A stretch of DNA of 64,000 nt from Methylomonas sp. UP202 (GTDB lineage: Bacteria; Pseudomonadota; Gammaproteobacteria; Methylococcales; Methylomonadaceae): contig NZ_CP123897.1 of the NCBI RefSeq assembly GCF_029910655.1, forward strand, positions 1,922,001 through 1,986,000, written 5' to 3'. Below are positions 21,031-35,597 of this stretch, in pieces. The translations under genes were made by a program, and so were the position numbers. The notes under the pieces were generated by a model, which made no database searches, was not told the origin of the DNA, and saw only the letters and a list, made by a program, of their open reading frames with translations. Each line of letters begins with the position of its first letter. Position 1 is the stretch's first letter.

Positions 21031-21975
21031 TTATATCGCGTTCAACAGCGCCAATTCCGCCGGGTGCGGCGACAGGTAAAACGATTGGTCGATGAACGGA
21101 TCGGGTTCGCGGCGGAAGTGGTGTTTCAGCAGCGTTAGCGGCACGATCAGCGGGAGCAGGCCGGTTCGATAGGCTTCGATAGTTTCGACCAGCTCCTGCT
21201 TGGCGTCGCTGTCCAGTTTCTGCTTCAAATAGCCCTGGATGTGCTGCAACACGTTGACGTGGTTGCCTCGGGTAGCGACGACCTTCAAACAGGCCATCAA
21301 GGCCGCCAGGTAGGCGTCGGCGATTTCGGTCAGATTCGCGGCATTGGCGTCGGCGACCAGCCGGCCCAGCGCGCGGGCTTGGTTTTGGTCGTGGCTCATC
21401 GCGATCAGCTTATGCCGGCTGTGAAAGCTCATCAGGGCGTGTACACTGAGGCCGGCCTCTGTCAGCTCCCGCCAACGCCGCAATACGAATACCCGCTGAA
21501 TAAAGTTCTCGCGCAAGGCCGGGTCGCCGAGCCGGCCTTCCTCTTCAATTGGCAGACAGGGAAACCGGCGTTGGATAAAACCCGCGAAAATGCCGGTACC
21601 GCAACGCGCCGGTATGTCGTTTTTGTAGACTTTGACCCGCTCCATGCCGCAACTCGGCGAATCCTTCTTCAATATATAGCCGCATAACTCGGCCAACCAG
21701 TCGGCCTGCTTTGCCGAGGCTTGTTCCAAACGCTCGGTGACGTCGAATCCGTGGTCCTTGACGCCGACGCAACGTATCACGCCGGGCGCGGTTTCCCGCA
21801 GTTGCACGCAAGGGCGTGGGATGCCTAGGCCAGCCTCCACTTCCGGGCAGAAGGCGCGGAACTCAAAATATTGGCCCAGCGTGCGTTCAATGTAGCTGTG
21901 GTATTTGTGAGCGCCGTCGTAACGGACTTCGTGGCCCAATAGACAGCTGCTGATACCGACTGGAATTTTCGTCAT
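21031..21975 (-). CDS. DUF523-DUF1722 fusion protein
   Basis: A 314-residue protein. The N-terminal DUF523 half (about 1-150) has GISSCLLGHEVRYDG, FCPEVEAGLGIPRP and KKDSPSCGMERVKVY, with conserved cysteines that could bind metal. The C-terminal DUF1722 half (about 180-310) includes SFHSRHKLIAMSH and related sequence, as in E. coli YbgA. YbgA-type proteins often neighbour DNA photolyase genes, as here. The start at 21975 shares an ATGA overlap with the end of the lipocalin gene, so the two are translationally coupled. It is the last gene of the light-stress gene run. Biochemical function is unknown. Confidence 0.9.
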   Translation of the reverse strand: MTKIPVGISSCLLGHEVRYDGAHKYHSYIERTLGQYFEFRAFCPEVEAGLGIPRPCVQLRETAPGVIRCVGVKDHGFDVTERLEQASAKQADWLAELCGYILKKDSPSCGMERVKVYKNDIPARCGTGIFAGFIQRRFPCLPIEEEGRLGDPALRENFIQRVFVLRRWRELTEAGLSVHALMSFHSRHKLIAMSHDQNQARALGRLVADANAANLTEIADAYLAALMACLKVVATRGNHVNVLQHIQGYLKQKLDSDAKQELVETIEAYRTGLLPLIVPLTLLKHHFRREPDPFIDQSFYLSPHPAELALLNAI

Positions 21976-22499
21976 GGGATTTGCTCGGATGGTGGGTGCC
22001 GGTCGTAAATCAGTTGATCGGTGGCAAAGCCCAGGTTTCGAGCTTGGTCCACCAAGGCTTTTAGCGTCGCGGCGGGCAATTGCGGATCGCGGGCCAATAT
22101 CCACAAATAGTCTCGGTCCGGGCCGGCGATCATCGCGTAACGATAGCCCGGTTTATCCAAGGCGATGATGTTGTAGGCGCCGTAAAACGGCCCGAAAAAC
22201 GACACTTGCAAGCGGCCGACAGTGGGCGTCTCGACGAATTCGGCCTGGCCTTCGGCGCTCTCCCGCTCTCCGGCTTCCGCCGAATAACCGCTGTTCAACA
22301 CCTTGACGCTACCGTCGGAATTCAGACTGTAGTCGGCGCGAATGTCGCTCAGGCCGCGTTCGAAGCGGTGGTCCAGCCGAGCGATTTCGTACCAGGTGCC
22401 GACGTATCGGGACAATTCGAAATCCTCGACCGCGACGACGCCGTCCGGGATGCCGGTGCAGCCGGTCAGAGTCAGTAACAGTAAACAGGTTTTACGCAT
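21972..22499 (-). CDS. blc: Outer-membrane lipocalin (Blc family)
   Basis: A 175-residue lipoprotein. The signal peptide ends in the lipobox LTGC (Cys14), which would be lipidated. The lipocalin signature follows: LSRYVGTWYEIARLDHRFERG, then GRLQVSFFGPFYGAYNIIALD and DRDYLWILARDP. Blc proteins bind lysophospholipids and fatty acids and are tied to membrane stress repair. The gene overlaps the photolyase gene by eight bases at its start and the DUF523 gene by four bases at its end. Lipocalins of this type are recurrent members of photolyase-centred light-stress clusters. Confidence 0.92.
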   Translation of the reverse strand: MRKTCLLLLTLTGCTGIPDGVVAVEDFELSRYVGTWYEIARLDHRFERGLSDIRADYSLNSDGSVKVLNSGYSAEAGERESAEGQAEFVETPTVGRLQVSFFGPFYGAYNIIALDKPGYRYAMIAGPDRDYLWILARDPQLPAATLKALVDQARNLGFATDQLIYDRHPPSEQIP

Positions 22500-23892
22500 C
22501 GGAGTTCTCTTGGATCGCCAGCGTGGTCAGCGCCTTGAATTGGGCTTTGATTAACCGGCTTTGGGTGCCGTGCTCGACGATCGGTGGCGGATAAGCGCCG
22601 GCCAGCGGTTGGCTGGCCCATTGGTGTATCACCTTCGCCGAGTAGGCCTGCAATTCCGGCAACCAGGTTTTGATGTAGTTGCATTGCGGATCGAACTTCT
22701 GTTGTTGCAGCCAGGGGTTGAAGATCCGGAAATAGGGTTGGGCATCGCATCCGGTGGATGCCGCCCACTGCCAATTGCCGTTGTTGACGCAGGGATCGTA
22801 ATCCAGCAGATGTTGGGCAAAGTAGCGTTCGCCCCAGCGCCAGGAAATATGTAAATCCTTGACCAGAAAGGACGCGACCACCATCCGCAAGCGGTTGTGC
22901 ATCCAGCCGGTTTGCTTCAATTCGCGCATTGCGGCGTCGACGATCGGGAAACCGGTCAAACCGTCGGTCCAGGCCGTGAAGTCGTCAAGATTATTGCGCC
23001 AGGGCACGGCGTCGTAGCGGCGGTCGAAAGCCTGCCCGAACACGTGCGGAAAGCGATAGGCGATGTGGCTGAAAAAATCGCGCCAATACAATTGTCGCAG
23101 CAACGGATGTTCCGGCCCTAATTGATGCTGAATCGCGGCGTATGCCTCGCGGACCGAGCAGGTGCCGAATTTTAGGTGTACCGACAACCGGCTGGTTTGG
23201 GCCAGTGCCGGGAAATCGCGGTTTTGCGCGTAGTCGCGACAGCTCGACACGGCTTGCAGACTTTGCAACGCGCTGGCGCGGCCGCCGGCAATCGGGTTGC
23301 GATGCGGACGCCGGTAGCGTTCCGGTAAATCGGCATCGTCGCCGGCCAGAGTGTCGGTATACCAACCACCGTCGGCCAGCGCGGCCGGCGCAGCGACCGG
23401 TATTTGCCGGGCTCGCCGGTAAAACGGGGTGAATACTTGAATGGGATTACCTTTAGCACTGGCGATTTGTTCCGGCTCGGTCAGCAGCAGGTCGTTGGTG
23501 ATGTGCAAGGCCACGCCCAACGCATTGCAGCATTCGCGGATTTCGGCATCGCGACGCAGACTGAACGGCGTGTAATCGCGGTTGATGTAGACCGCATCGA
23601 GGCCGAACGTTTCGCGGAGCCGGGCAATCAAATCGTGGGGCAGGGTTGCGAAACAGTACAGCTTGCCGCCGCGGTTAACTAAATCGCGTTGCAGACCGGC
23701 GACGGCCTCCAGCATGTATTGCAGGCCGGGCTGGCTTTGATAGGTATGGGCTTCGATTTGGCGCGGATCGAACGCGAAGGCCGTTATCACACGGTCCGCA
23801 CCGCGCCGCGCGGCATTCAGCGCGGTATTGTCGTCCACGCGTAAGTCTCGCCGAAACAGGAACAGCGCAACGCGATAGGGTTTGTCGCTCAT
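22492..23892 (-). CDS. phrB: Deoxyribodipyrimidine photolyase
   Basis: A 466-residue class I CPD photolyase that uses light to split UV-induced pyrimidine dimers. The N-terminal Rossmann-like antenna domain has LFLFRRDLRVDDNTAL. The C-terminal FAD domain has LRQLYWRDFFSHIAYRFP, TGFPIVDAAMRELKQTGWMHNR and NNGNWQWAASTGCDAQPYFR, including the tryptophans used for electron transfer and the DPxxNNGNWQW region. Length and motifs fit E. coli PhrB rather than a cryptochrome, although cryptochrome-like function cannot be excluded from sequence. It sits three bases after the upstream membrane-protein gene and overlaps the lipocalin gene. Confidence 0.95.
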   Translation of the reverse strand: MSDKPYRVALFLFRRDLRVDDNTALNAARRGADRVITAFAFDPRQIEAHTYQSQPGLQYMLEAVAGLQRDLVNRGGKLYCFATLPHDLIARLRETFGLDAVYINRDYTPFSLRRDAEIRECCNALGVALHITNDLLLTEPEQIASAKGNPIQVFTPFYRRARQIPVAAPAALADGGWYTDTLAGDDADLPERYRRPHRNPIAGGRASALQSLQAVSSCRDYAQNRDFPALAQTSRLSVHLKFGTCSVREAYAAIQHQLGPEHPLLRQLYWRDFFSHIAYRFPHVFGQAFDRRYDAVPWRNNLDDFTAWTDGLTGFPIVDAAMRELKQTGWMHNRLRMVVASFLVKDLHISWRWGERYFAQHLLDYDPCVNNGNWQWAASTGCDAQPYFRIFNPWLQQQKFDPQCNYIKTWLPELQAYSAKVIHQWASQPLAGAYPPPIVEHGTQSRLIKAQFKALTTLAIQENSDA

Positions 23893-23895
23893 GGC

Positions 23896-24405
23896 TTAGC
23901 AGTCGCCGAACTGTGCGATCATCTGCTGGCAATTGAACAGAATGTTGGGGTAATACCGATAAATCACCCAGCGCAACGCCAGATCGGCAAATGCGGCGAT
24001 CGTGGCCAGCCTGGCCAGCACTGCCCAATATCTTGCCGTGCAATGCGCCGAGCAGCGCCACACCGCGCCGGTCCAGTAAATCAACGGCATCAGGCAGATG
24101 AGGTGTATCGTGATCCAGCTGGCGGCCGTGAACGAACCTTCCTGAAGTCGATAATCGACGCCGAACAGGATCGGATTGTAAATCAGGAAGAACGGCCAGA
24201 ACGCGCTACTTAGCCTGGTATAGCCCAGCCAACTCCATTGTAGGTAGAGGTATAACGTATTCGGCAGCTTGACTTCCCAGTAAGCGGGTGGCGGCGGCGT
24301 TAGCGAGTACAGCAGGATGGTCAGCGCAACGCCGACGGCGAGTGCCTCCCACCAAGCCATGAAGGTGGTGAATTCCAGTAATAAAGCCAGACTGTTGAAG
24401 AGCAT
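23896..24405 (-). CDS. Integral membrane protein of unknown function
   Basis: A 169-residue protein with about four hydrophobic segments (residues roughly 5-35, 50-75, 90-115, 125-150). Cysteines occur near the C-terminus (WRCSAHC, NCQQM, GDC). A proline run (PPPP) follows the first helix. I recognise no family. It is packed between the TIGR01777 epimerase gene (15 bases) and photolyase (three bases), so it is almost certainly cotranscribed and part of the same response. Confidence 0.7.
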   Translation of the reverse strand: MLFNSLALLLEFTTFMAWWEALAVGVALTILLYSLTPPPPAYWEVKLPNTLYLYLQWSWLGYTRLSSAFWPFFLIYNPILFGVDYRLQEGSFTAASWITIHLICLMPLIYWTGAVWRCSAHCTARYWAVLARLATIAAFADLALRWVIYRYYPNILFNCQQMIAQFGDC

Positions 24406-24420
24406 AGACGGTCGGGATGG

Positions 24421-25332
24421 TCAGTGGCGGAGTAAAAGTTGGTTTAAAGCGTCGTCCAAACGCGGATAGCGAAAACCGAAGCCGTGATTCGATAAGCGGG
24501 TTGGTAACACGCGTTGGCCGCCCAGCAACAGTTCGGCCATTTCGCCCAATATCGGCCGCAACAGCCAGGCCGGCAGCGGCAACAGCATCGGCCGACCCAG
24601 CGTCCTGGCCAGGGCTTGGCTGAATTGACGATTATCGACAGGCGTCGGCGCGGTGGCATTATACGGTCCGACCATATTGCTATCGTTCATTAAGGTTTCG
24701 ACGATCGCCAGCCAATCAGTCAAATGTATCCAGGACATCCATTGCCTGCCGTCGCCGATCGTGCCGCCCAGCCCCAGGCGATAAACCGGCAACAGGCGTT
24801 GCAGCAGGCCGCCGCCGTTGCCCAATACCAAGCCGGTACGCAGCAAACAGACCCGGCAACCGGACGATCCGGCGACAATGGCCGCCGCCTCCCAGTCGGC
24901 GCATAGCTGCTGCGCGAAGTCGGGCTTGGGTGGGCTGGTCTCTTCCAATGGACGCTCGCCCTGGTCGCCGTATATGCCGATCGCCGAACCGCTAATCAGC
25001 ACGCCCGGCGGCCGGGTCGAGGCATTAATCCAGTCGGCCAGTTGCCGGGTGGGGCCGATCCGGCTGTCGCGCAATTCCCGCTTGCGGTCCTGGCTCCAGC
25101 GCCGATCCAGAATGCCGGCACCGGCCAGATTGACGATGGCGCGGAATTCGCCGGCATCCGGCAAGTCTGTTAGCGCAACCACGGGCGCGACTCGATCGCC
25201 GAAGCGGGCGCGGACTTTTTCGGCGTCGCGGCTGAAGATGTGGACCGAATAGCCTTGCTTGAGCAGGACCTCGGTTAAGGCGCTGCCCAAAAAGCCGGTT
25301 CCGCCGGTGATTAATATCGCTGGATTTGCCAT
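24421..25332 (-). CDS. TIGR01777-family NAD(P)-dependent epimerase/dehydratase (YfcH-like)
   Basis: A 303-residue short-chain dehydrogenase relative. The nucleotide-binding motif is ILITGGTGFLGSAL at the N-terminus; the family hallmark ISGSAIGIYGDQGERPLEE is near residue 105, and GRQWMSWIHLTDW near residue 195. The C-terminal DUF1731-like part includes GEMAELLLGGQRVLP. The substrate is unknown. Genes of this family are regular members of light-induced photolyase clusters in Pseudomonas, Vibrio and others. It follows msrQ by 24 bases. Confidence 0.92.
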   Translation of the reverse strand: MANPAILITGGTGFLGSALTEVLLKQGYSVHIFSRDAEKVRARFGDRVAPVVALTDLPDAGEFRAIVNLAGAGILDRRWSQDRKRELRDSRIGPTRQLADWINASTRPPGVLISGSAIGIYGDQGERPLEETSPPKPDFAQQLCADWEAAAIVAGSSGCRVCLLRTGLVLGNGGGLLQRLLPVYRLGLGGTIGDGRQWMSWIHLTDWLAIVETLMNDSNMVGPYNATAPTPVDNRQFSQALARTLGRPMLLPLPAWLLRPILGEMAELLLGGQRVLPTRLSNHGFGFRYPRLDDALNQLLLRH

Positions 25333-25356
25333 CTTCGTCGCCTCGTCGTCGGATCG

Positions 25357-25980
25357 TCAGTCGCGCTGGCCGGCGCCAAGCACCAAGGCTTGCCGCAGGC
25401 TTTTCAACCAGCCAACCAGTCTAAAGCCCAGCAGCAAACCGAGGATGACCAGATAAAAACCGGGTTCGGCCAGATTGCCCTTGAGTTGCCAATAGTAGTG
25501 CAGAATCACCAATACCGAGGCCAGATAGATGTAGCGGTGCAGCCGCTTCCACTGTTTGCCCATCCGTTTCATCGCCCATTTCGACGAGGTGATTGCCATC
25601 AACAGGATCAGGCTGTAGGCGATCAGTCCCATCCACAAATAGTTGCTTTGCAGGACATCCGGCACGATGGCGTCCCAGGCCAGCGCGTGATCGACCCACA
25701 AATAGGCCAATAAATGCAGGCTGGCGTAAAGGAAACTGTACAGTCCGAAAATCTGCCGGTAATCGGCCATGCCGCGCCATTTGGATATGCTTTGTACCGG
25801 GGTAATCGTCAACGTGATCCATAAAAACCGCATGGCCCAATCGCCGAGCCGAATGTGCACGGCCTGAATTGGATTGGCGCCCAAACGATCCAGTTCGGTA
25901 TCGGCGATCAGCCACAACAGCGGCAGCAAGCAGACCGCGAGCGTGATCGACTTTAAATGGCGGAGGATGAACGCGGACAT
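25357..25980 (-). CDS. msrQ: MsrQ, heme-binding membrane subunit of the MsrPQ methionine sulfoxide reductase
   Basis: A 207-residue membrane protein of the ferric-reductase-like family with about six helices. Histidines in SLHLLAYLW, HRYIYLASVLVILHYYW and elsewhere are the likely heme ligands. It passes electrons from the cytoplasm or quinone pool to periplasmic MsrP, which repairs oxidised methionines. Its ATG shares one base with the msrP stop codon (TAATG), so the two are translationally coupled. Placement in a light-stress cluster is sensible because singlet oxygen oxidises methionine. Confidence 0.93.
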   Translation of the reverse strand: MSAFILRHLKSITLAVCLLPLLWLIADTELDRLGANPIQAVHIRLGDWAMRFLWITLTITPVQSISKWRGMADYRQIFGLYSFLYASLHLLAYLWVDHALAWDAIVPDVLQSNYLWMGLIAYSLILLMAITSSKWAMKRMGKQWKRLHRYIYLASVLVILHYYWQLKGNLAEPGFYLVILGLLLGFRLVGWLKSLRQALVLGAGQRD

Positions 25981-26903
25981 TAGAAAAAATGCTTCAGGTC
26001 CATCTGGCTATAAAGTTGGCCGACTTGGTCGGCATAGCCGTTGAACAATTCGGTTTTGCGGCGCGGCGTGAAAAAATCCGAGCCGAGTACGCGCTCGCTG
26101 GTTTGGGTCCAGCGCGGATGGGCCACCGCCGGGTTGACGTTGGCGTAAAAGCCGTATTCGCTCGGCGCGTAGCGGCTCCAGGACGTCAACGGCGCTCGCC
26201 GGGTCAATTCGATTTTGACGATGGCCTTGATGCTTTTGAAGCCATATTTCCAGGGTACGACCAAGCGCAGCGGCGCCCCATTTTGCTTGGGTAGATCCCG
26301 TCCGTACATGCCGCTGGCCAACATCGTTAACGGATGCATCGCTTCGTCCAGGCGTAGTCCTTCGACGTAAGGCCAGTCCAACATCGCGCCGGCCCGCAAT
26401 TTGGGCATGGCCTCGGGTTGCGCGGCCGAGGTGAACTTGACGAAACGGGCGGCGGACAGCGGTTGAGCGCGTTTCAGCAAGTCCGCCAACGGAAAGCCTA
26501 GCCACGGAATTACCGCGGACCAACCTTCCACGCAGCGTAAGCGGTAGATGCGTTCCTGGAGGGGGTGGTCGCGCAGTATGTCCTCGAGGCTGTAGACGCC
26601 GGGCTTTTCGACTTCGCCGGCGATTTCGATTTGCCAAGGCTCGACGGCGATATGTCTAGCCAATTGCGCGACGCTTTCCTTGTCGAAAGCTAGCTCGTAG
26701 TAGTTGTTGTATTGCTCGACCAGCCTGGCTGGGGTAACGGCGTTGGCGTCGGCTATCGATTGCCGGTCTTCGGTCGCGGCGGCCAAGGTCCACGGCGCGG
26801 CGGAGGCCAGCCCCATGGCTTTCAGAAGAACGCGGCGGGCTTGGAATACGGCTGGGTCGGTCACGTCGTGATCGCGAAAGGCCGGGCGGGTTTTAATCAA
26901 CAT
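25980..26903 (-). CDS. msrP: MsrP, periplasmic molybdopterin methionine sulfoxide reductase
   Basis: A 307-residue molybdoenzyme of the sulfite oxidase fold. A twin-arginine signal is visible (ARRVLLKAMGLASAAP). The molybdenum-ligand cysteine lies in IYRLRCVEGWSAVIPW near residue 143. The conserved C-terminal part RWTQTSERVLG and FNGYADQVGQLY is present. It reduces protein-bound methionine sulfoxide in the periplasm. GAGGT lies about eight bases before the start. It follows the desaturase-like gene by ten bases and is coupled to msrQ. Confidence 0.95.
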   Translation of the reverse strand: MLIKTRPAFRDHDVTDPAVFQARRVLLKAMGLASAAPWTLAAATEDRQSIADANAVTPARLVEQYNNYYELAFDKESVAQLARHIAVEPWQIEIAGEVEKPGVYSLEDILRDHPLQERIYRLRCVEGWSAVIPWLGFPLADLLKRAQPLSAARFVKFTSAAQPEAMPKLRAGAMLDWPYVEGLRLDEAMHPLTMLASGMYGRDLPKQNGAPLRLVVPWKYGFKSIKAIVKIELTRRAPLTSWSRYAPSEYGFYANVNPAVAHPRWTQTSERVLGSDFFTPRRKTELFNGYADQVGQLYSQMDLKHFF

Positions 26904-26913
26904 GGCCGGGACC

Positions 26914-27747
26914 TCACGGCTTTTTGCTGTTGGGTATCCAACGCAGCAACTTGCGAAACTGGCGTTCGGTAATGAAGGCCAGCGAAAACAATTGAATGAA
27001 ATTTTCCGCTTCGATCAAATCCAGTCCGATCTGGGCCGGCGCCAATTCCAGCCGGGTGCCGAACAGCCGGTCCCATATTGCCAGCACGATGCCGTAGTTA
27101 CTGTCGTGTTCGCTACGCAATTTAGAGTGGTGGGTGCGGTGCAGCGACGGGGTGATAATCAGTTGCGACAGGGTCTGCTCGTGCGGCACGCGCAGGTTGG
27201 CGTGGTGAAAAAAGATGAAAAACAGTTCGATGATTTCGATCGATAGCACTAGATAGGCATCCACCCCAATCAATACCACGAACACGCATTTGTAGAGGAT
27301 TTCCAGCAACAGGTCGAAGACGTGGAAGCGAAAGCCGGTCGAGACGTTGAAACACTTGTCGCTATGGTGGATTTTGTGGAACCGCCACAGCCATTCGAAG
27401 CGATGACTGGCATAGTGCCAAGCGTAAATCGCCAAATCGAAAAAGGCGAAGGCCAACAGCCATTTCACCGGACCGTTGTCCAACTTGCCAAGTAGACCGA
27501 AATCGGCGAATTGTTGCGCGACCAGAAATAGCGACGAGGCGCGCAATACCGTCAATATCAGATTGTTGATTAAAAAGGCGGCGGTGTTGGTCACCAGCGA
27601 TTCTTTGTAGATTTTGGTCGAAAACGGCAAATGGGGCTGACGTTTTTCCAAAACCAGTAAAGCGACGAAGGCCAGAATGGCTAGCCCGAACAAGGCTTGA
27701 TTAAAAGCGATCGCGGCGGCGGGTTGGGTATCGATTGCGGCGTTCAT
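26914..27747 (-). CDS. Sterol desaturase / fatty acid hydroxylase family protein
   Basis: A 277-residue integral membrane di-iron oxygenase. The histidine clusters HYASH, HKIHH and HRTHH are all present, with several hydrophobic helices before and between them. Such enzymes hydroxylate or desaturate lipids or carotenoids. A strong GGAGGTG sits five bases before the ATG. Its place between the LOV photoreceptor gene (17 bases) and msrP (ten bases) suggests light-dependent membrane lipid or pigment modification. The substrate cannot be assigned. Confidence 0.9.
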   Translation of the reverse strand: MNAAIDTQPAAAIAFNQALFGLAILAFVALLVLEKRQPHLPFSTKIYKESLVTNTAAFLINNLILTVLRASSLFLVAQQFADFGLLGKLDNGPVKWLLAFAFFDLAIYAWHYASHRFEWLWRFHKIHHSDKCFNVSTGFRFHVFDLLLEILYKCVFVVLIGVDAYLVLSIEIIELFFIFFHHANLRVPHEQTLSQLIITPSLHRTHHSKLRSEHDSNYGIVLAIWDRLFGTRLELAPAQIGLDLIEAENFIQLFSLAFITERQFRKLLRWIPNSKKP

Positions 27748-27764
27748 TGGACACCTCCGTCGGA

Positions 27765-28226
27765 TTAACCGGTTTGGCCGGGCGTGCTGCCCAGCAGGGC
27801 GGAGAGGGCTTGGATTTCGTGGTCGGCGTTGACTTGCTGGGTAATGTCGTATTGCACGCCGAGGTAGTACATCACCCGTTGTTTGTTATCGAACAGCGGG
27901 ATAATGCGCAGCCGGTTGTGAAACAGGGTGCCGTCTTTCTTGTAATTTCGCAATTCGACTTCGACCGATTCATGCTTACGCATCGCTTCCGCAATTTGGC
28001 GGCGGGCCGGCTGATCGCGGTCTTCACCTTGCAAAAACCGGCAATTGTGGCCGACGATTTCATCGCTACCGTATCCGGTCAGGCGCTCGAAGGCCTTGTT
28101 GGCGTAAACGATGGGGGCATCGTCGAGATCGGGATCGGCCAACGTCACGCCGTTGACGCATTCGTCGAGTATCGCCGATAGAATTTGCGGAATGATGCCG
28201 CTGTCTTTTTTGACTACGAAAGGCAT
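27765..28226 (-). CDS. Short LOV-domain blue-light photoreceptor
   Basis: A 153-residue protein that is essentially one LOV domain with a short C-terminal helix. The photoactive cysteine is Cys62 in GHNCRFLQGED, the diagnostic LOV motif. Flavin-contacting residues are conserved: Asn61, Gln66, Asn94 (LRNYKKDG), Asn104 (FHNRLRI) and Gln125 (YYLGVQYDIT). It should bind FMN and form a flavin-cysteinyl adduct under blue light. No effector domain is fused, so it would act by dimer rearrangement or by binding a partner. GGGAG lies eight bases before the ATG. It sits inside the light-stress gene run. Confidence 0.93.
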   Translation of the reverse strand: MPFVVKKDSGIIPQILSAILDECVNGVTLADPDLDDAPIVYANKAFERLTGYGSDEIVGHNCRFLQGEDRDQPARRQIAEAMRKHESVEVELRNYKKDGTLFHNRLRIIPLFDNKQRVMYYLGVQYDITQQVNADHEIQALSALLGSTPGQTG

Positions 28227-28278
28227 GTTAGTTACTCCCGGTAAGCGTTTTATTTTTATGGTCGAACTTGACGCCAGA

Positions 28279-28761
28279 CTAAGGCGACTCGGCGACGATC
28301 AGGTTGCGAATGTTTTCGACGGTATTTTCGGCGCCGTCTTCTATCGCCGCTCGGATCAGTTTTTCGAAGGGACGCATGAACACGTCGAGATTGAGCAACT
28401 CGAAGCGAAAGGTCAGGCGAGTCGGGCTGCGGTCGTTTAGGCCTTCGAGTAAATAACTATGCCGATACGGCGACGTCAAGCCGCGAAAAATCAGGGTGTC
28501 TTCGGGTTGGTATTCGGTGATTTCGAACACCGATTCGATGGGCTCGCCGTTTTCGAGTATGCATTGTCGAGCCTTGGCGCCGACGAACACTTCCTCGCCG
28601 TCCAAGGCTTGAAACGCCAATAATTCTTCGGCCCATTTCGGGTAATTGTCGAAAAAGCGGGTGCCGACGAAATCGAACACTTCAGTGATCGGTTTTTCGA
28701 TCTCGACACTGGCTTGGCCGGCGACCGGTCTGGTGGCGTCGAACGGTAGCTTGATAGGCAT
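28279..28761 (-). CDS. SRPBCC (START/polyketide cyclase-like) family protein
   Basis: A 160-residue protein with the SRPBCC pattern: an N-terminal strand then a helix (ASVEIEKPITEVFDFVG), central strands (GAKARQCILENGE, FEITEYQPEDTLIFRG) and a long C-terminal helix (MRPFEKLIRAAIEDGAENTVENI). Such proteins bind hydrophobic ligands in an internal cavity. SRPBCC genes are found in several light-stress clusters, but no ligand is known to me. It is 52 bases upstream of the LOV gene. Confidence 0.8.
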   Translation of the reverse strand: MPIKLPFDATRPVAGQASVEIEKPITEVFDFVGTRFFDNYPKWAEELLAFQALDGEEVFVGAKARQCILENGEPIESVFEITEYQPEDTLIFRGLTSPYRHSYLLEGLNDRSPTRLTFRFELLNLDVFMRPFEKLIRAAIEDGAENTVENIRNLIVAESP

Positions 28762-28796
28762 GGAGTCCCCCTCTCTGTATGCAAGCTTGGTGAAGT

Positions 28797-28828
28797 CGGC
28801 CGGTTTGTCGTTATTGTGGTGCCGGCCG
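28797..28828. repeat. Inverted repeat between membrane-protein gene and SRPBCC gene
   Basis: CGGCCGG at 28797-28803 and CCGGCCG at 28822-28828 can pair across an 18-base loop. No T tract follows on either strand, so it is not a standard terminator. It may be an RNA-processing or attenuation hairpin in the 96-base gap. Confidence 0.35.
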
Positions 28829-28857
28829 TTGGTCGATTAACTTTGCGTAGTCATCAA

Positions 28858-29304
28858 TTAATGTCCTCTCGAAGCGGAAGATCCGCCGCGTCGCTCTTGG
28901 CGGAATGCCGCTAGACCGCCGTACACCAGGTGAGATGCGCCGGCGTACAGGAATAGCTCTGCGTATTTCTCGTCGATCTCGATCTGGTTGATCGAAGCGT
29001 AAAACCCCAACGACGCGGTCAACAATAATAAAAACACGCCCAGGCCGGCGACCGCGGCCGGGCTGTTGCCGTATAAATAAAAGCTGTAGACGGCAATCTG
29101 CACCAGACTTAAATAAAACATCATCAAGCGCAGATTGTTGGCGAGCGGACCGTACAGGTCGCTGTTATCCTCGAAATAGATGGCACCGCCGAACATCGAC
29201 AACGCCGAGCTGATCAGAACCAGCAACACTGCGGCGTTAAAGTTGACTTGCAGCAGCAATTCCACGATGTCGAGGGTTTTGCCCGCTAGGGTTTTGGTCT
29301 GCAT
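28858..29304 (-). CDS. Small membrane protein of unknown function
   Basis: A 148-residue protein with about four hydrophobic helices (residues near 17-42, 58-78, 82-102, 115-135) and an Arg/Ser-rich C-terminal tail (RQERRGGSSASRGH). The start at 29304 has GAGGTG five bases upstream. I recognise no family. It follows ftsH after a hairpin and precedes the SRPBCC gene, so it is the first gene of the distal half of the light-stress gene run. Confidence 0.7.
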   Translation of the reverse strand: MQTKTLAGKTLDIVELLLQVNFNAAVLLVLISSALSMFGGAIYFEDNSDLYGPLANNLRLMMFYLSLVQIAVYSFYLYGNSPAAVAGLGVFLLLLTASLGFYASINQIEIDEKYAELFLYAGASHLVYGGLAAFRQERRGGSSASRGH

Positions 29305-29317
29305 CGCGACACCTCGA

Positions 29318-29357
29318 AAAAGATACCCTCCAAGAGTGTTGCAGGTTTGGAGGGTAT
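29318..29357 (-). terminator. Candidate intrinsic terminator or attenuator after ftsH
   Basis: ATACCCTCCAA (29323-29333) and TTGGAGGGTAT (29347-29357) form a perfect 11-base-pair stem with a 13-base loop. Read on the minus strand the stem is followed by CTTTTT. It lies between the ftsH stop and the next start codon. It could end the sigma-hflKC-ftsH transcript fully or in part. Confidence 0.65.
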
Positions 29358-29371
29358 ATAGAGGAGGAAGG

Positions 29372-31270
<1,899 letters not shown>

Positions 31271-31285
31271 GGCGCGGTTCCCCGT

Positions 31286-32149
31286 TTATTTTTCGCTGGA
31301 GAAGTATTTGAAAAAGTCCGAATCCGGTTTCAACACCAGGGTATCCTGAGTTTTCTCGAACGAGGTTTGGTACGCCTGCAGCGAGCGGTAAAAGGCGTAG
31401 AACTCCGGATTGCGTCCGAAACTTTTCGCATAGATTTCGGCGGAGCCGGCGTCGCCGCGGCCGCGAATGTTTTCGGCATCTCGCTGGGCGTTGGCTACGA
31501 TGACTTGCCGCTGCTTGTCGGCCTCGGCGCTGATTTGTTCGGCGCTTTCGGCGCCTTGCGAACGGAATTCCCGGGCGACCCGTTCCCGTTCGGCGCGCAT
31601 CCTTTGATAAACCGAGCTGCTGACTTCCGGTGGCAAATCGATGCGTTTGACGCGGATGTCGATCAGCTCGATGCCGAACTTGGCCGCGGTCGGCGCCAGT
31701 TTTTGCAGCAAAGTGTTGCGCAACTCGCTGCGGTCTTCGGATATCAGTTGTTTGATGGTCCTGACGCCGAACTCGCTACGCATCGCGTCCTTCATGATTT
31801 GGTCCAGGCGCAGGTTCGCTTGAAACTCGTCGCCGCCGACCGTGGTATAAAAAAGACCCACATCACCGATTCGCCACTTGGCGAACGAGTCGACTATAAC
31901 GTTCTTCTTTTCGGAGGTAAGAAAACGCTCGGACTTGGCATCCAAGGTCAGCACGCGCGCATCAAACGTGCTGACGTTATTGATGATGGGGGTCTTAAAA
32001 TGGAGTCCCGGCTTGTAATCGGCGCTAACCATTTCACCGAGACGGAACAGGATGGCTTTTTCATGTTCGCGGACGTAAAACACGGACATGTAGGCCAAAA
32101 TCAGTAACAACAGACTGCTGGGAATCAGGACTTGGATTCGGCTGCTCAT
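31286..32149 (-). CDS. hflC: HflC, SPFH-domain modulator of FtsH
   Basis: A 287-residue protein with an N-terminal membrane anchor (LIPSSLLLLILAYMSVFYV) and an SPFH/band-7 domain (REHEKAILFRLGEM, then FAKWRIGDVGLFYTTVG). A coiled-coil region includes RMRAERERVAREFRSQGAE. With HflK it forms the cage around FtsH that restricts substrate access. It overlaps hflK by four bases (ATGA) and precedes ftsH by 15 bases. Confidence 0.95.
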   Translation of the reverse strand: MSSRIQVLIPSSLLLLILAYMSVFYVREHEKAILFRLGEMVSADYKPGLHFKTPIINNVSTFDARVLTLDAKSERFLTSEKKNVIVDSFAKWRIGDVGLFYTTVGGDEFQANLRLDQIMKDAMRSEFGVRTIKQLISEDRSELRNTLLQKLAPTAAKFGIELIDIRVKRIDLPPEVSSSVYQRMRAERERVAREFRSQGAESAEQISAEADKQRQVIVANAQRDAENIRGRGDAGSAEIYAKSFGRNPEFYAFYRSLQAYQTSFEKTQDTLVLKPDSDFFKYFSSEK

Positions 32150-33312
32150 GGTTTGCTCCTGCTTGGGCGTAAATCGCCACCGCTGCTTTTGCGGGCGGCA
32201 TTTTTATCTTTTGCGGACGGTTCGATGTTATGCTCGGCTTCTACTCCGCCGGTGGTCGCCGAACTGGCCGGATGGCTGACGGTTTGCGGTAGCGGCATGT
32301 ACAGCATCGGGTTGGCGCCGTCGGCGCCCAACATGATTTTATTGGTACTGCTGTACAGTTTTTCCTTGGCTTCCAGATAGAGACGCTTGCGGGTAATCGC
32401 CGGGTTTTTCTCGTATTCCACCAATAACTGATCGAAACGTTCGGTTTCGCCCTTGGCTTTGGCGAGTTTCTCAGCCTCGTAAGCCTCGGCCTCCTGGATG
32501 ATTCGAGACGCGGCACCGCGGGCCTTAGGGATAATCTCGTTGGAATAGGCTTCGGCTTCGTTGATCAAGCGTTGTTTGTCCTCCCGCGCCCGAATCGCGT
32601 CCTCGAACGCGCCTTGAACTTCTTCTGGCGGTTGAGCGTCTTGCAAGTTGACGCTGGCGATCGTGATGCCGGTGCGGTAGTCGTCCATCGCTTGTTGAAT
32701 CTGTTCCTTCAGTTCGGCGACGATCTGACTGCGGCCCTCGGTCAGTACGAAGTCCATGTTGTTACGGCCGATCACCGCTCGTTCGACGCTTTCGGTGACT
32801 TGCTTTAAGGTGTTTTCGTTATCCTTGACGCTGTACAAGTAGTTTTTGGCGTTGTTGACCTGATATTGCACCGCCAGACGGACATTGATGATGTTTTCGT
32901 CCGCGGTCAACATTAAGGATTCCGCCGGAATCAACGACGATTTGCTCAAGCGGCTGGAATCGCGGTAGCCGATTTCGATGAAGCGTTGTTGCTCGACGTT
33001 GACGATGGTGACCTCTTCTATCGGCAGCGGAAAGTGCCAATGCGGGCCAGGTAGCGTCGTGTCGGCATAGGCGCCGAAACGGGCGACCACGCCGCGATTG
33101 CCTTCTCCAACGATGTAAAAGCCGCTGCCCAGCCAAGCGACGACCAGCGTGCCGCCGAGCATCGAAGCTACCTTGGACATGGAAAACAGGTGTTTGTGAT
33201 CGTTATAAAAATCGTTGGCCTTGCCCGAAAACTGTCGCCATTGTTTGTCCACCTCCAGCTTCCAGTCCGGCTGCGGCTCGTGTTTACCGGTATTTTGTTT
33301 TTCTGATGACAT
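32146..33312 (-). CDS. hflK: HflK, SPFH-domain modulator of FtsH
   Basis: A 388-residue protein with a cytoplasmic N-terminal segment, one membrane helix near residues 48-68 (VASMLGGTLVVAWLGSGFYIV), an SPFH domain (GEGNRGVVARFGAY) and a long coiled coil (about 215-310). It partners HflC. The start at 33312 is supported by AGAGGAG five bases upstream; an in-frame GTG two codons earlier is buried in that site. It follows the sigma factor gene by about 50 bases, so sigma, hflK, hflC and ftsH look like one operon. Confidence 0.94.
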   Translation of the reverse strand: MSSEKQNTGKHEPQPDWKLEVDKQWRQFSGKANDFYNDHKHLFSMSKVASMLGGTLVVAWLGSGFYIVGEGNRGVVARFGAYADTTLPGPHWHFPLPIEEVTIVNVEQQRFIEIGYRDSSRLSKSSLIPAESLMLTADENIINVRLAVQYQVNNAKNYLYSVKDNENTLKQVTESVERAVIGRNNMDFVLTEGRSQIVAELKEQIQQAMDDYRTGITIASVNLQDAQPPEEVQGAFEDAIRAREDKQRLINEAEAYSNEIIPKARGAASRIIQEAEAYEAEKLAKAKGETERFDQLLVEYEKNPAITRKRLYLEAKEKLYSSTNKIMLGADGANPMLYMPLPQTVSHPASSATTGGVEAEHNIEPSAKDKNAARKSSGGDLRPSRSKP

Positions 33313-33364
33313 AATCACTCCTCTTGTTAAGTGTTAGCCTGACCTGCGTCGTTACTTGTTATAG

Positions 33365-34609
33365 TTAGCCGTCCCTGGGCTCGAGAAATAGCATAAGGTC
33401 AAAACCAAACTGTTGTTTCAGTTTTTTTAAGGCATCGTTCTGAATTTGCCGAACTCTTTCCCGGGTGACATGCAGTTGGTCCGCGACGGCCTGTAAGGTC
33501 ATTTCGGTATGATCGCGCAATCCGAAACGCATCGTCAGAATGGCCGCTTGCTTCTCCGGCAAGGATGCCACCGCTTTGTCGACGTATTGAGCCAAATCCC
33601 TTTCTATTAGTTCATCCAGCGGTAAACTGAATTGGTGTTGTTGCATTTTCGCCATCAGATCCAGGCCGTCTTCGTCGTCGTTGACCGCCGCGTCCAGCGA
33701 ATGGGTCGCTTGGTAGTAGCTGCTGATAGTCTTGATTTCCTGTTCCGACAGGTCGCAACCCGCTTTCAGTTCTTCAAGCGTCGGCCAACGTTCGTTCTTT
33801 AAATAACAGGTACGCATCGCGTCGAACACGGTGTTGGCTTTTTCGGCCAGCGCGACCGGCAGGCGAACGATGCGCTCCTGCTTGACGATCAAGCGGGAAA
33901 TCGCTTGCTTGATCCAGTAAATCGCATACGTGGAAAAGCAGATACCCCGATCCGGATCGAAACGGTCGACCGCCTTGATGAGTCCCACCAGCCCCTCCTG
34001 CATCAAATCGTCGAAACTCAGATTGCTGGTTTTGTATTTGTGGGCGACGAAGGCCACCAGGCCGGTGTTGGCGCTGATCATTTGTTGGCGGGCGGTTTTC
34101 AATTCCTTTCTGGCCGCCGTCAATCGCGCCTTGTACGCCGTATCCTCGATCAAGGCTTCGGCGCTGGCGGCGACGGCCAATAAGAACACGGGCATGAAGT
34201 GCAACTTGTCCAGCAGCGGTAATAGAGTTCGGATGGCGTCGCATTGATTGAGCCTTTGCGGTTCGAAAAGTTGTACAAAGTAATCTTCTTGTACAAGTTC
34301 GTCATCGACAGTGTCGTCGCTCTGATCCGGGCAGTGGCTGCAATCGACGTTCAAACCGATGGCGAGCGTGTCCAACAAGGCTTTGTAGTCTTGCTGACTT
34401 CTGGAGGCCACCAGCTCGGAACAATCGCCGCCTTTTTGCAGTTGCCTTATCAATTGTTCGGCCAGGGCTTGTGCGGCGCTCCGGTCGTTCCGAATCAGGA
34501 CGGACAGATGTTGCCGGGCCTGTTCCAGTTTGCCGGCCAGCCGAGAGGTTTCCGATTCTTGCGTCGGTTGAATCTCTTCGAATGCATTGGAAGCGGTGAG
34601 CTCTGACAT
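33365..34609 (-). CDS. Sigma-70 family RNA polymerase sigma factor (alternative type)
   Basis: A 414-residue sigma factor. Region 2 is well conserved (LVAFVAHKYKTSNLSFDDLM, VGLIKAVDRFDPDRGICFST, YAIYWIKQAISRLI), as are region 3 (LPVALAEKANTVFDAMR) and region 4 (LPEKQAAILTMRFGL, LQAVADQLHVTRERVRQIQN). The first 160 residues are unlike RpoD, RpoS or RpoH and include a CSHC pair. It has region 3, so it is not an ECF factor. It heads the minus-strand gene run and is divergent, 88 bases apart, from a B12-type photoreceptor repressor. By analogy with LitR- or CarH-controlled sigma factors it probably drives light-induced transcription. Its promoter targets are unknown. Confidence 0.92.
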   Translation of the reverse strand: MSELTASNAFEEIQPTQESETSRLAGKLEQARQHLSVLIRNDRSAAQALAEQLIRQLQKGGDCSELVASRSQQDYKALLDTLAIGLNVDCSHCPDQSDDTVDDELVQEDYFVQLFEPQRLNQCDAIRTLLPLLDKLHFMPVFLLAVAASAEALIEDTAYKARLTAARKELKTARQQMISANTGLVAFVAHKYKTSNLSFDDLMQEGLVGLIKAVDRFDPDRGICFSTYAIYWIKQAISRLIVKQERIVRLPVALAEKANTVFDAMRTCYLKNERWPTLEELKAGCDLSEQEIKTISSYYQATHSLDAAVNDDEDGLDLMAKMQQHQFSLPLDELIERDLAQYVDKAVASLPEKQAAILTMRFGLRDHTEMTLQAVADQLHVTRERVRQIQNDALKKLKQQFGFDLMLFLEPRDG

Positions 34610-34697
34610 AGCGTTTCTTTTTTTATTTTTAAGTTGGCAATAACGTTACTACCTTGTAGAATATTTGTCAAAGAAAATAATGTACAAAACGTGAACA
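34610..34697. promoter_or_regulatory. Divergent control region between sigma factor and LitR/CarH-like regulator
   Basis: On the minus strand a TTGACA box (34666-34671) is followed after 17 bases by TAACGT (34643-34648), a plausible sigma-70 promoter for the sigma gene. AATGTAC occurs twice, 18 bases apart (34679-34685 and 34697-34703), the first extending to TGTACA. The second copy runs into the regulator's start codon. The spacing suggests an operator for the divergent MerR protein close to both promoters. The operator assignment is inference. Confidence 0.5.
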
Positions 34698-35597
34698 ATG
34701 TACTCAATCAAGGCCATTACCTCGTTGACCGGCTTGACCCCCGAGACCCTTAGGGCCTGGGAGAGACGCTATTCGTGTATCACGCCGTCCCGCACCGGTA
34801 CCGGTCGGCGCTATTATTCCCAGCAAGACTTGGAAAAACTGACCTTGCTGGTCAATCTGACTCGCAACGGCCATCCGATCAGTAAGATCGCCGGCATGGA
34901 TTGCCCGCAATTACGGGCGTTCCAGGAACAAGCCGCGCCGACGGTGGCCGAGCCGCGCACTTTGCCGCTGATCGAGCAAATCGTCGATGCATTAGCCGAG
35001 TATCGGATCGAGCGTTGCGAGCAACTGTTGAAACGGGCGCTGTTGGCAAGCGAGCCGTTGGACTACGCCAGAGACGTTTTGTTGCCGGCGTTGCATAAAG
35101 TCGGTTATTTGTGGGAGCAGGGCCGATTGAACATTGCCCAGGAACATATGTTTTCGAGTTGCGTGCAGCGTATCGTGCTGACGATGGTCAACAATTTGCA
35201 CCGACCCTCGCCTAACAACCCGTCCATCATGTTCGCGACCCCGAGCGGCGAGCCGCATGAATTCGGAATCCTGTTGTGTTGCCTGGTGGCTTCGGCCCAG
35301 CAATACCAATGTTATTACCTCGGCGCCGATTTGCCGGCGGCCGATATTGTCGCCGCCGCCGCGCATTTACGTCCGGACGCGCTGGTCATGGGGCTGGTGA
35401 AGACGCCGCCGGAAACAGCGACGCTCTTGGAACTAAAACAGATACTCGGCGCCAGTCTCGACAGCAAGCTTTGGTTGGGCGGCAGCGGCGCGGATTACAT
35501 AGCCTCACACGCCCTGGCGGATTTGTCCCGGTGCGAATTGATCGGCGACATCGATCATTTCGACGCCAAGATCAAACAGCAACGGGTGCTGAGTTAG
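34698..35597 (+). CDS. litR: MerR-type transcriptional regulator with B12-binding photosensory domain (LitR/CarH-like)
   Basis: A 299-residue light-responsive repressor. Residues 1-70 are the MerR DNA-binding domain (YSIKAITSLTGLTPETLRAW, then GTGRRYYSQQDL). Residues about 85-160 form the helical B12 cap with the diagnostic W-x9-EH motif: Trp139, Glu149, His150. Residues about 175-290 are the cobalamin-binding Rossmann domain with His187 in GEPHEFG, the expected lower ligand of cobalt. In CarH such proteins are adenosylcobalamin-bound repressors that fall apart in light. Here the residue after the Trp is Glu140 instead of the His that caps the light state in Thermus CarH, so photochemistry may differ. 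It is divergent from the sigma factor gene. Confidence 0.9.
   Translation: MYSIKAITSLTGLTPETLRAWERRYSCITPSRTGTGRRYYSQQDLEKLTLLVNLTRNGHPISKIAGMDCPQLRAFQEQAAPTVAEPRTLPLIEQIVDALAEYRIERCEQLLKRALLASEPLDYARDVLLPALHKVGYLWEQGRLNIAQEHMFSSCVQRIVLTMVNNLHRPSPNNPSIMFATPSGEPHEFGILLCCLVASAQQYQCYYLGADLPAADIVAAAAHLRPDALVMGLVKTPPETATLLELKQILGASLDSKLWLGGSGADYIASHALADLSRCELIGDIDHFDAKIKQQRVLS

Follow-up and report, generated by a model that had tools for sequence, protein, structure and literature searches.

Could light act on the particulate methane monooxygenase (pMMO) of a methanotroph through a small regulatory RNA (sRNA)? The question is raised by a locus of Methylomonas sp. UP202, contained in the stretch of 64,000 nucleotides analysed here, hereafter the window (C1:1922001-1986000 of the 5.68-Mb genome, G000). 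In this locus a gene for a B12-type LitR regulator faces a run of genes headed by a sigma-70 factor, hflK, hflC and ftsH, and a conserved RNA element of about 53 nucleotides (nt) lies between ftsH and the next gene, orf148. In lakes, aerobic gammaproteobacterial methanotrophs form a main biological filter for methane, whose oxidation there is reported to be inhibited by light; a literature search for a molecular route from light to pMMO found none among titles and abstracts.

The answer that we propose, and regard as falling just short of an even balance, is that a family of sRNAs of about 50 nt, residing in the LitR-sigma-HflKC-FtsH locus of Methylomonas and some related genera, would shut off translation of pmoB by means of a conserved 11-nt seed, light thus repressing pMMO. 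The observations behind it are the architecture of the locus, its conservation, the operator sequences, the covariation of the RNA and its complementarity to pmoB. If true, the pairing of the sRNA with pmoB would be a molecular cause of light-inhibited methane oxidation; the locus offers a candidate light-to-pMMO route hinging on a few nucleotides.

A conserved RNA and its candidate target

The sequence TCCTCCTCTAT is found directly 3' of ftsH, and is followed by a hairpin and a U-tract. Over 21 sequences, 99.5% of the helix is paired and 5 of 10 base pairs show compensatory changes, a covariation reached in none of 500 shuffles and higher than in all slid controls, the latter comparison favouring the structure, which was derived from the same 21 sequences. 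Of 61 copies folded, 58 leave the first 12 nt unpaired ahead of the hairpin. Two features expected of an sRNA are therefore found: a covarying conserved structure with a terminator and, at the level of sequence and fold, an unpaired conserved seed complementary to the ribosome binding site (RBS) of a target. No Rfam model matched within the window at gathering score.

A search with an RNA model (R1) located the element in 86 of the 201 genomes of the order and in 16 of 48 genera, always in single copy except in two genomes; the window genome has one match. Eighty-six of the 88 hits were read (G073 and G099 were left out): 68 have the seed block, UCCUCCUCUAU, without change, 8 differ from it at one base, 6 at two and 4 at five or six. 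Four of the one-base variants (G111, G134, G143 and G202) read UCCUCCUCUGU, which would hold a G-U pair with the pmoB leader, provided that the leader is identical in those genomes. In four genomes of genus g21 (L204, L212, L218 and L220) the seed is TCCTCCTCTGT, a change compatible with a G-U pair at the same leader. The seed is conserved far more than the hairpin arms, the Shine-Dalgarno (SD) sequence of orf148 and the upstream flank. In 31 of 33 RNA loci the base in front of the block is a purine; the 33 were picked by the block pattern, so that the 2 bits measured per block position are partly such by construction.

The RNA tends to occur together with the sigma family described below: across the 201 genomes, 77 have both, 9 the RNA only, 16 the sigma only and 99 neither (Fisher p 8e-29, relatedness ignored). 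Five of the nine RNA-only genomes belong to family f7, where the three hits that were read lack the seed block and resemble plain terminators; the others are G148, G149 and G195, from one genus and with changed seeds (TCCTCCTCGAT twice, TCCTCCTCGGT once), and G152, whose seed is intact. In a class-wide sample of 369 genomes (R2) six hits were obtained, two within the family of Methylomonas and four weaker ones outside it, in G296, where a terminator carries the same 11 nt and no Orf148 was seen, and in G310, G365 and G374. On these sequences, the RNA family appears convincing so far only in the Methylomonas family.

Downstream of the RNA an Orf148 homologue is found at 77 of the 86 read hits; in G017, G165, G167 and G192 the RNA is retained and Orf148 is gone. 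The upstream neighbour varies, being ftsH, a divergent SDR gene or phr. Orf148 itself (AF2 pLDDT 85.7) matches no PDB fold at E<=0.001, and no Pfam or NCBIfam family. The idea that the RNA is, as a general rule, the 3' untranslated region of ftsH was dropped, because in other genera it lies upstream of Orf148 without ftsH; in Methylomonas it is possibly processed from the sigma operon. A promoter at the seed block, hinted at by the TATA-like end of UCCUCCUCUAU, was also rejected, the first arm of the hairpin beginning 0-3 nt on and covarying. In L106, L109, L203, L205 and L219 an inverted repeat like CTTAATC...GATTAAG was noticed by eye in the interval that separates the RNA from the divergent SDR gene, a possible operator of another repressor.

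Two sites of the window genome contain the exact 11-mer UCCUCCUCUAU: the RNA itself and the antisense of the pmoB SD. The RBS of pmoB, which lies in pmoCAB (AmoC, AMO, Monooxygenase_B and TIGR03079, above cut-off), is ATAGAGGAGGAAATATG. The same complementarity is found in G036, of another genus, where the pmoB leader reads ATAGAGGAGGATATATG and the RNA (L113) has an exact seed. The predicted energy of the seed duplex with pmoB is -20.2 and -20.0 kcal/mol in the two genomes; 11 other leaders range from -3.9 to -13.0, and none of 200 shuffles is as low as pmoB; among 76 leaders of mechanically called open reading frames (ORFs) pmoB ranks best, the next being at -15.9. A small hairpin over the SD is predicted in the pmoB leader of both genomes. 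In 3.67 Mb of non-viral DNA the 11-mer has 106 copies, which, sorted by a rough rule plus inspection by eye, fall outside RNAs and terminators only in the pmoB leaders of G000 (counted twice) and G036. What seems unusual is that the single non-self site is, in two genera, that of a key enzyme. If the pairing is real, ATAGAGGAGGA is expected to be kept in the pmoB leaders of RNA-bearing genomes, and to drift where the RNA is absent, as it is from most sampled genomes of genera g15, g20 and g32, or its seed changed, as in g26.

Further pmoB leaders were sought in viral contigs, where there were none and where a pattern scan gave at least 120 generic matches, which were discarded; on plasmids, where only distant amo/pmo genes appeared; and in blind genome stretches, where only a pxmABC-like cluster of G025 was met (L424:13721-16457, a stretch without the seed complement). 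As an alternative target hflK was rejected as weak: its SD pairs over 7 nt, and it is one of 29 AGAGGAG-N4-10-ATG sites of the genome (4 and 4 in the controls). In G036 (L050) pmoCAB lies about 4 kb from sigma-ftsH, upstream of them, along with a Mrp-like ATPase and a DCD-like deaminase.

LitR, the sigma factor and FtsH

The regulator aligns over its full length with Thermus CarH (PDB 3whp, E 1.2e-26) and has the domains of a class I LitR/CarH protein, namely a MerR helix-turn-helix (HTH), B12-binding_2 and B12-binding. With a PF02310 score of 28.5, below the curated cut-off of 32.1, and an NCBIfam CarH equivalog score of 118.7, below 400, it would be a divergent member of the class. The motifs Wx9EH and G[ED]xHxxG, whose residues we take to be those needed for binding cobalamin as adenosyl-B12 (AdoB12) and for its photochemistry, occur in it and in all of 32 relatives, D replacing E in the second motif of some; by sequence it stands nearer to class I than to the B12-less class II of Pseudomonas. 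From a scan of named genomes with a LitR alignment, 80 of 107 relatives were retained. Thirty-nine of these, L117-L155, form the Methylococcales group, although the titles of some say no more than Gammaproteobacteria or proteobacterium, and a sigma gene adjoins LitR in 38 of them, the exception being L154; the other 41 loci gave one sigma match. LitR-sigma-ftsH is present in Methylomonas sp. LW13 and in Methylotuvimicrobium buryatense 5G.

The whole genome was scanned for LitR operators with the pattern WRTACA-N12-TGTAYW, the reversed pattern serving as control. It is found at three places (one in the control), two of which are O1, at the start of litR, and O2, within the sigma gene (Table 1). 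C1:4975396, which falls within a long ORF, and C1:1863460, which precedes an unrelated one, were taken as chance rather than as LitR sites. O1 stops 9 bp short of the -35 box of the sigma gene, without overlapping it; at the genome level TTTTGTA-N8-15-TTGACA has one further site besides the sigma promoter. The TGTACA-type form of the operator at the sigma promoter is that of the PplR/PmlR2 consensus, and TGTACA-N12-TGTACA operators at sigma70-type promoters have been footprinted for PmlR2, according to passages of PMC9758184. An operator/promoter arrangement like TGTTTTGT...TTTGACA lies upstream of sigma in 48 of 68 loci; the 20 misses include 6 LitR-less copies (L039, L041, L043-L046), and some of the others are, by eye, variants or start-codon artefacts.

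Of the sigma genes counted as LitR-linked, 29 of 32 carry a perfect O2, and none of the 8 others does. Left out of this count is L049, a LitR-linked locus of another family that lacks O2; L040, where litR is truncated at the end of a contig and O2 is likewise absent, stands among the 8. Taking both as linked, the figures become 29 of 34 and 0 of 7. GTA is used at the two Val codons of the site in 30 and 31, respectively, of the 32 LitR-linked genes. Four LitR-less paralogues have similar amino acids at this position (V-Q....V-K), encoded by different codons, which suggests that O2 is conserved as a DNA site rather than as a peptide. Spacing between O1 and O2 varies from 402 to 435 bp in relatives, hence no strict helical phase is kept, and LitR would probably act at the two sites by looping or as a roadblock. 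The locus suggests that LitR control can employ an operator hidden in the coding sequence of its target. In the whole-genome scan no match was found before the eleven genes downstream of ftsH, so that direct LitR control of them is unsupported.

Among those genes is a second putative photoreceptor, a short LOV protein with a LOV core, the GxNCRFLQ cysteine and no effector domain, which among PDB entries matches LOV "sensory box" proteins best. The motif is intact in 21 of 22 aligned rows, the miss being a different, 1106-aa PAS protein. By analogy, this protein may add blue-light anti-repression in Methylomonas.

The sigma factor contains Pfam regions 2 and 4, region 3 scoring 24.6 against a cut-off of 25.3. 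Its best NCBIfam scores are for MzaA, RpoS and RpoD, all far under cut-off, and at 211 bits, against an equivalog cut-off of 378.7, it is not assigned to RpoS; by sequence it classifies as group-2-like with an RpoD/RpoS-like core. A profile separating the family from RpoD at about 250 bits detects it in 93 of the order's 201 genomes. At 20 distant loci of this sigma, HflKC, LitR and the repair genes are mostly gone, unlike ftsH, which among the genes searched for is the next same-strand gene in 19, the twentieth being cut by a contig end; an HflC-like stretch lies between the two genes in L243 and L258. LitR stands beside sigma in 3 of the 20, and a distant LitR behind ftsH in 2. That sigma and ftsH have stayed neighbours across deep divergence suggests a mutual action of their products. 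Two FtsH paralogues (67% and 46% identity) and a second HflK (60%) are encoded elsewhere in the genome, so the HflK and FtsH of the locus are an additional set; light-sensing sigma circuits, the locus suggests, can bring a dedicated FtsH protease.

Some side observations concern other members of the sigma family. In L253 (G119) and L254 (G161) a distant LitR homologue (about 30%) is convergent behind sigma-ftsH. Five Methylomonas genomes (L039, L043-L046) hold second sigma-HflK-HflC-FtsH cassettes, for which no LitR, LitR-operator match or RNA was found. In G022 (L041:2868-4304) a sigma of this family, with no LitR, ftsH or RNA match, follows surE-/pcm-like genes, presumably the usual place of rpoS. 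In L049/L155, of another family, LitR faces a sigma homologue followed by genes which we regard as FAD oxidoreductase-like, DUF1365-like and UfaM-like, assumed to be the furan-fatty-acid light set of Pseudomonas; this locus has its own sigma and no ftsH.

A proposed circuit and its alternatives

Taken as a whole, we see a LitR-gated light/photo-oxidative locus, with a sigma-HflKC-FtsH circuit and an sRNA curbing pmoB, an explanation for and against which we find ourselves evenly divided. In the dark LitR, presumably AdoB12-bound, would occupy O1 and O2 and block sigma-hflK-hflC-ftsH. In the light AdoB12 would be broken, LitR released and sigma, HflKC and FtsH derepressed, with the LOV protein perhaps assisting in the way in which PmSB-LOV acts on PmlR2 (passages of PMC9758184). 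The sigma factor would then drive protective genes, the repair genes being reached by sigma-dependent promoters or by read-through. FtsH with HflKC would clear photodamaged membrane proteins and probably also trim the sigma factor, in a negative loop resembling FtsH-RpoH, and the sRNA would pair with the pmoB SD, lowering pMMO synthesis under light stress.

A number of points weigh against this explanation. Light control, the sigma regulon, proteolysis of the sigma factor by FtsH, and expression and action of the sRNA are all parts that we infer from sequence data, and it is gene adjacency by itself that makes degradation of the sigma factor by FtsH probable. L041 and L049 have a sigma gene with no ftsH behind it, and L154 consists of LitR-HflKC-FtsH, no sigma being found when searched for beside LitR. 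A perfect O2 is missing from LitR-linked L034, L062 and L068, besides L049 and L040; LitR-linked L103, L110, L112 and L259 are true misses of the operator/promoter pattern. No clear sigma-specific promoter was found, the flanks upstream of the 33 RNA loci being low in information, with a weak ACT/TAA-type -10 and the purine at -1. As to the RNA, the seed is changed in 18 of the 86 read hits, and so is not invariant; the RNA was not hit in sixteen of the genomes with the sigma, and in four genomes of the family it occurs with no sigma hit. About 2.7 chance copies of any 11-mer are expected in the genome and, the seed complement being SD-like, a single match at some RBS is little surprise. Moderately good pairing is also predicted for the leader of hflK (-13.0) and for another of the 76 (-15.9), and the pmoB leaders compared come from two genomes, G000 and G036.

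A rival view takes the RNA for a mere intrinsic terminator or a cis attenuator of orf148, whose C-rich block would pair with the orf148 SD or aid termination, the match to pmoB being incidental because that block is anti-SD-like. In its favour Orf148 so often comes next, and the fold of the window sequence pairs CCUC of the RNA with GAGG of orf148. We consider it rather unlikely, as the RNA persists in the four genomes without Orf148, the seed is far more conserved than the arms of the hairpin, the flank upstream or the SD of orf148, the nearest upstream gene is on the opposite strand at the divergent-SDR loci, the purine in front of the block (in block-picked loci) is reminiscent of a transcription start, and pmoB is the sole perfect non-self site of the genome. 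For FtsH-HflKC, a purely effector role, clearing photodamaged membrane proteins such as pMMO with no action on the sigma factor, is nearly as credible as its opposite, if somewhat less so. These are membrane proteostasis factors, the remaining genes encode repair enzymes, the host carries abundant membrane pMMO, FtsH works in photosystem II repair, and L041 and L049 have the sigma gene without ftsH; the 19 of 20 distant loci in which ftsH stays with sigma suggest coupling instead.

A preliminary description of the locus had taken all sixteen genes for one contiguous light-response unit, and a single LitR operon, induced by light and transcribed past the terminator, is an alternative to the circuit proposed here which we judge improbable. 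Gaps are indeed short, and the gene-order search suggested in that description, carried out on 40 sigma-centred loci (L031-L070; 38 from 33 genomes of the genus and one each from G036, of another genus in the family, and G045, of another family), retrieved all 16 homologues in the same order in 18, nearly all Methylomonas, with protein identities of about 53-92%; several of the remaining 22 are cut by contig ends. The strong, conserved and covarying terminator after ftsH, the lack of operator matches before the eleven later genes and the separation of parts in relatives argue against a single unit, and the 16 genes are probably not one transcription unit. The block is built of separable modules, some genomes holding LitR-sigma-HflKC-FtsH with few or no repair genes: L035 is reduced to LitR-sigma-HflKC-FtsH-orf148, L036-L038 are without SRPBCC, LOV, FA_hydroxylase, MsrPQ, orf169 and YbgA, and in L062 the stretch from orf148 to msrQ is gone. 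Least probable of all is a response to general oxidative or stationary stress with vestigial or modulatory photoreceptors: MsrPQ, Blc and FtsH are not light-specific and the sigma core is RpoS/RpoD-like, but the B12 motifs are kept in 32 of 32 and the LOV cysteine motif in 21 of 22 rows, and the operator sites are strongly constrained.

The circuit proposed here has partial parallels among known systems. Thermus CarH and Streptomyces LitR have in common with the window an AdoB12 regulator upstream of light genes. Streptomyces LitR is paired with LitS, an ECF sigma, with carotenoids as output; the window sigma differs in being group-2-like and accompanied by FtsH. In E. coli FtsH turns over RpoH, whose gene is not accompanied by ftsH; the window is alike in having a sigma factor that FtsH would be likely to control. 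The class II LitR/short LOV systems of Pseudomonas (PplR1-3, PmlR2 with PmSB-LOV), as far as described in passages of PMC9758184, are alike in the MerR regulator, the short LOV, the photolyase and SDR genes near litR and the TGTACA-N12-TGTACA operator at a sigma70-type promoter. In contrast to them, the window LitR retains both B12 domains and the AdoB12 motifs, O1 stops 9 bp short of the -35 box, which the Pseudomonas operator overlaps, and opposite LitR stands a sigma gene of its own with HflKC-FtsH; the sigma gene contains a second operator, and an RNA is embedded in the locus. The Vibrio cholerae MerR/ChrR blue-light response also has a MerR-like gene beside a photolyase gene (a predicted operon) and a sigma layer, there an RpoE-type sigma with ChrR; the passages of PMC5241685 note no HflKC-FtsH or linked sRNA. 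In Rhodobacter sphaeroides (RpoE-RpoHII-StsR/CcsR; passages of PMC8307010 and PMC7074977) photo-oxidative sigmas similarly govern photolyase, methionine sulfoxide reduction and metabolism-tuning sRNAs, a likeness of description rather than of sequence; CcsR1-4 are co-transcribed with the upstream ccaF1 and, in those passages, have no methane enzyme target. No published account of the sigma-HflKC-FtsH-LitR linkage or of the RNA was found in titles and abstracts and in passages of PMC8645107 and PMC11796333, subscription journals being mostly outside this coverage.

Gene content of the locus

The sixteen genes of the preliminary description, placed at 21031..35597, all exist: the ORF list contains 15 minus-strand ORFs and one divergent plus-strand ORF at those positions, with gaps of -8 to +96 nt, and both family assignments and order in relatives bear them out (Table 1). 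Sequence likewise speaks for the LitR-type B12 regulator, the flavin-type LOV sensor, the sigma gene and the repair genes named there. The gene called desaturase-like does encode a membrane protein, of the FA_hydroxylase family (PF04116), which we take to be di-iron by family. The description is therefore confirmed as an observation, its interpretation being partly supported; the terminator-like RNA in the ftsH/orf148 gap and the two LitR operators were absent from it and were found here.

Table 1. Features of the locus, in window positions (the start of the YbgA-like gene was set at 21975, not at that of a longer GTG ORF)
Feature	Position	Strand	Basis
LitR/CarH-like regulator, MerR HTH + B12-binding_2 + B12-binding	34698..35597	+	Pfam, NCBIfam, CarH 3whp match
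LitR operator O1, AGTACA-N12-TGTACA	34681..34704		over litR start codon; kept in relatives
Sigma-gene promoter TTGACA-N17-TAACGT, good -35, weak -10	34643..34671	-	sequence and intergenic regions of relatives
LitR operator O2, perfect TGTACA-N12-TGTACA	34272..34295		within sigma coding sequence, 409 bp from O1
Group-2-like sigma-70 factor, 414 aa, long N-terminal extension	33365..34609	-	Pfam regions 2 and 4
HflK	32146..33318	-	TIGR01933 above cut-off
HflC	31286..32149	-	TIGR01932 above cut-off
FtsH protease	29372..31270	-	TIGR01241 above cut-off
Conserved RNA element: UCCUCCUCUAU at 29358-29368, hairpin, U-tract	29317..29369	-	covariation, folds
Orf148, 148 aa, four-helix membrane protein, orphan	28858..29304	-	Pfam/NCBIfam without match
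SRPBCC / polyketide cyclase-like protein	28279..28761	-	PF10604
Short LOV photoreceptor, 153 aa, GHNCRFLQ	27765..28226	-	Pfam/NCBIfam, PDB 7a6p E 9e-32
FA_hydroxylase-superfamily membrane protein	26914..27747	-	PF04116
MsrP	25980..26903	-	NF003767 above cut-off
MsrQ	25357..25980	-	NF003831 above cut-off
TIGR01777 SDR	24421..25332	-	TIGR01777 above cut-off
169-aa orphan	23896..24405	-	no family; kept in synteny
Class I photolyase	22492..23892	-	PF03441, PF00875
Blc lipocalin	21972..22499	-	PF08212
DUF523/DUF1722 (YbgA-like)	21031..21975	-	PF04463, PF08349

The cluster is adjoined, at 18486-20906, by what we take to be a TonB-dependent receptor-like gene with an N-terminal signalling-type domain, for which no homologue was seen in the 40 sigma-centred loci compared. 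A near-identical locus is found in Methylomonas koyamae R-45383 (L117), where the compared proteins are 98-100% identical, and MsrP 96%.

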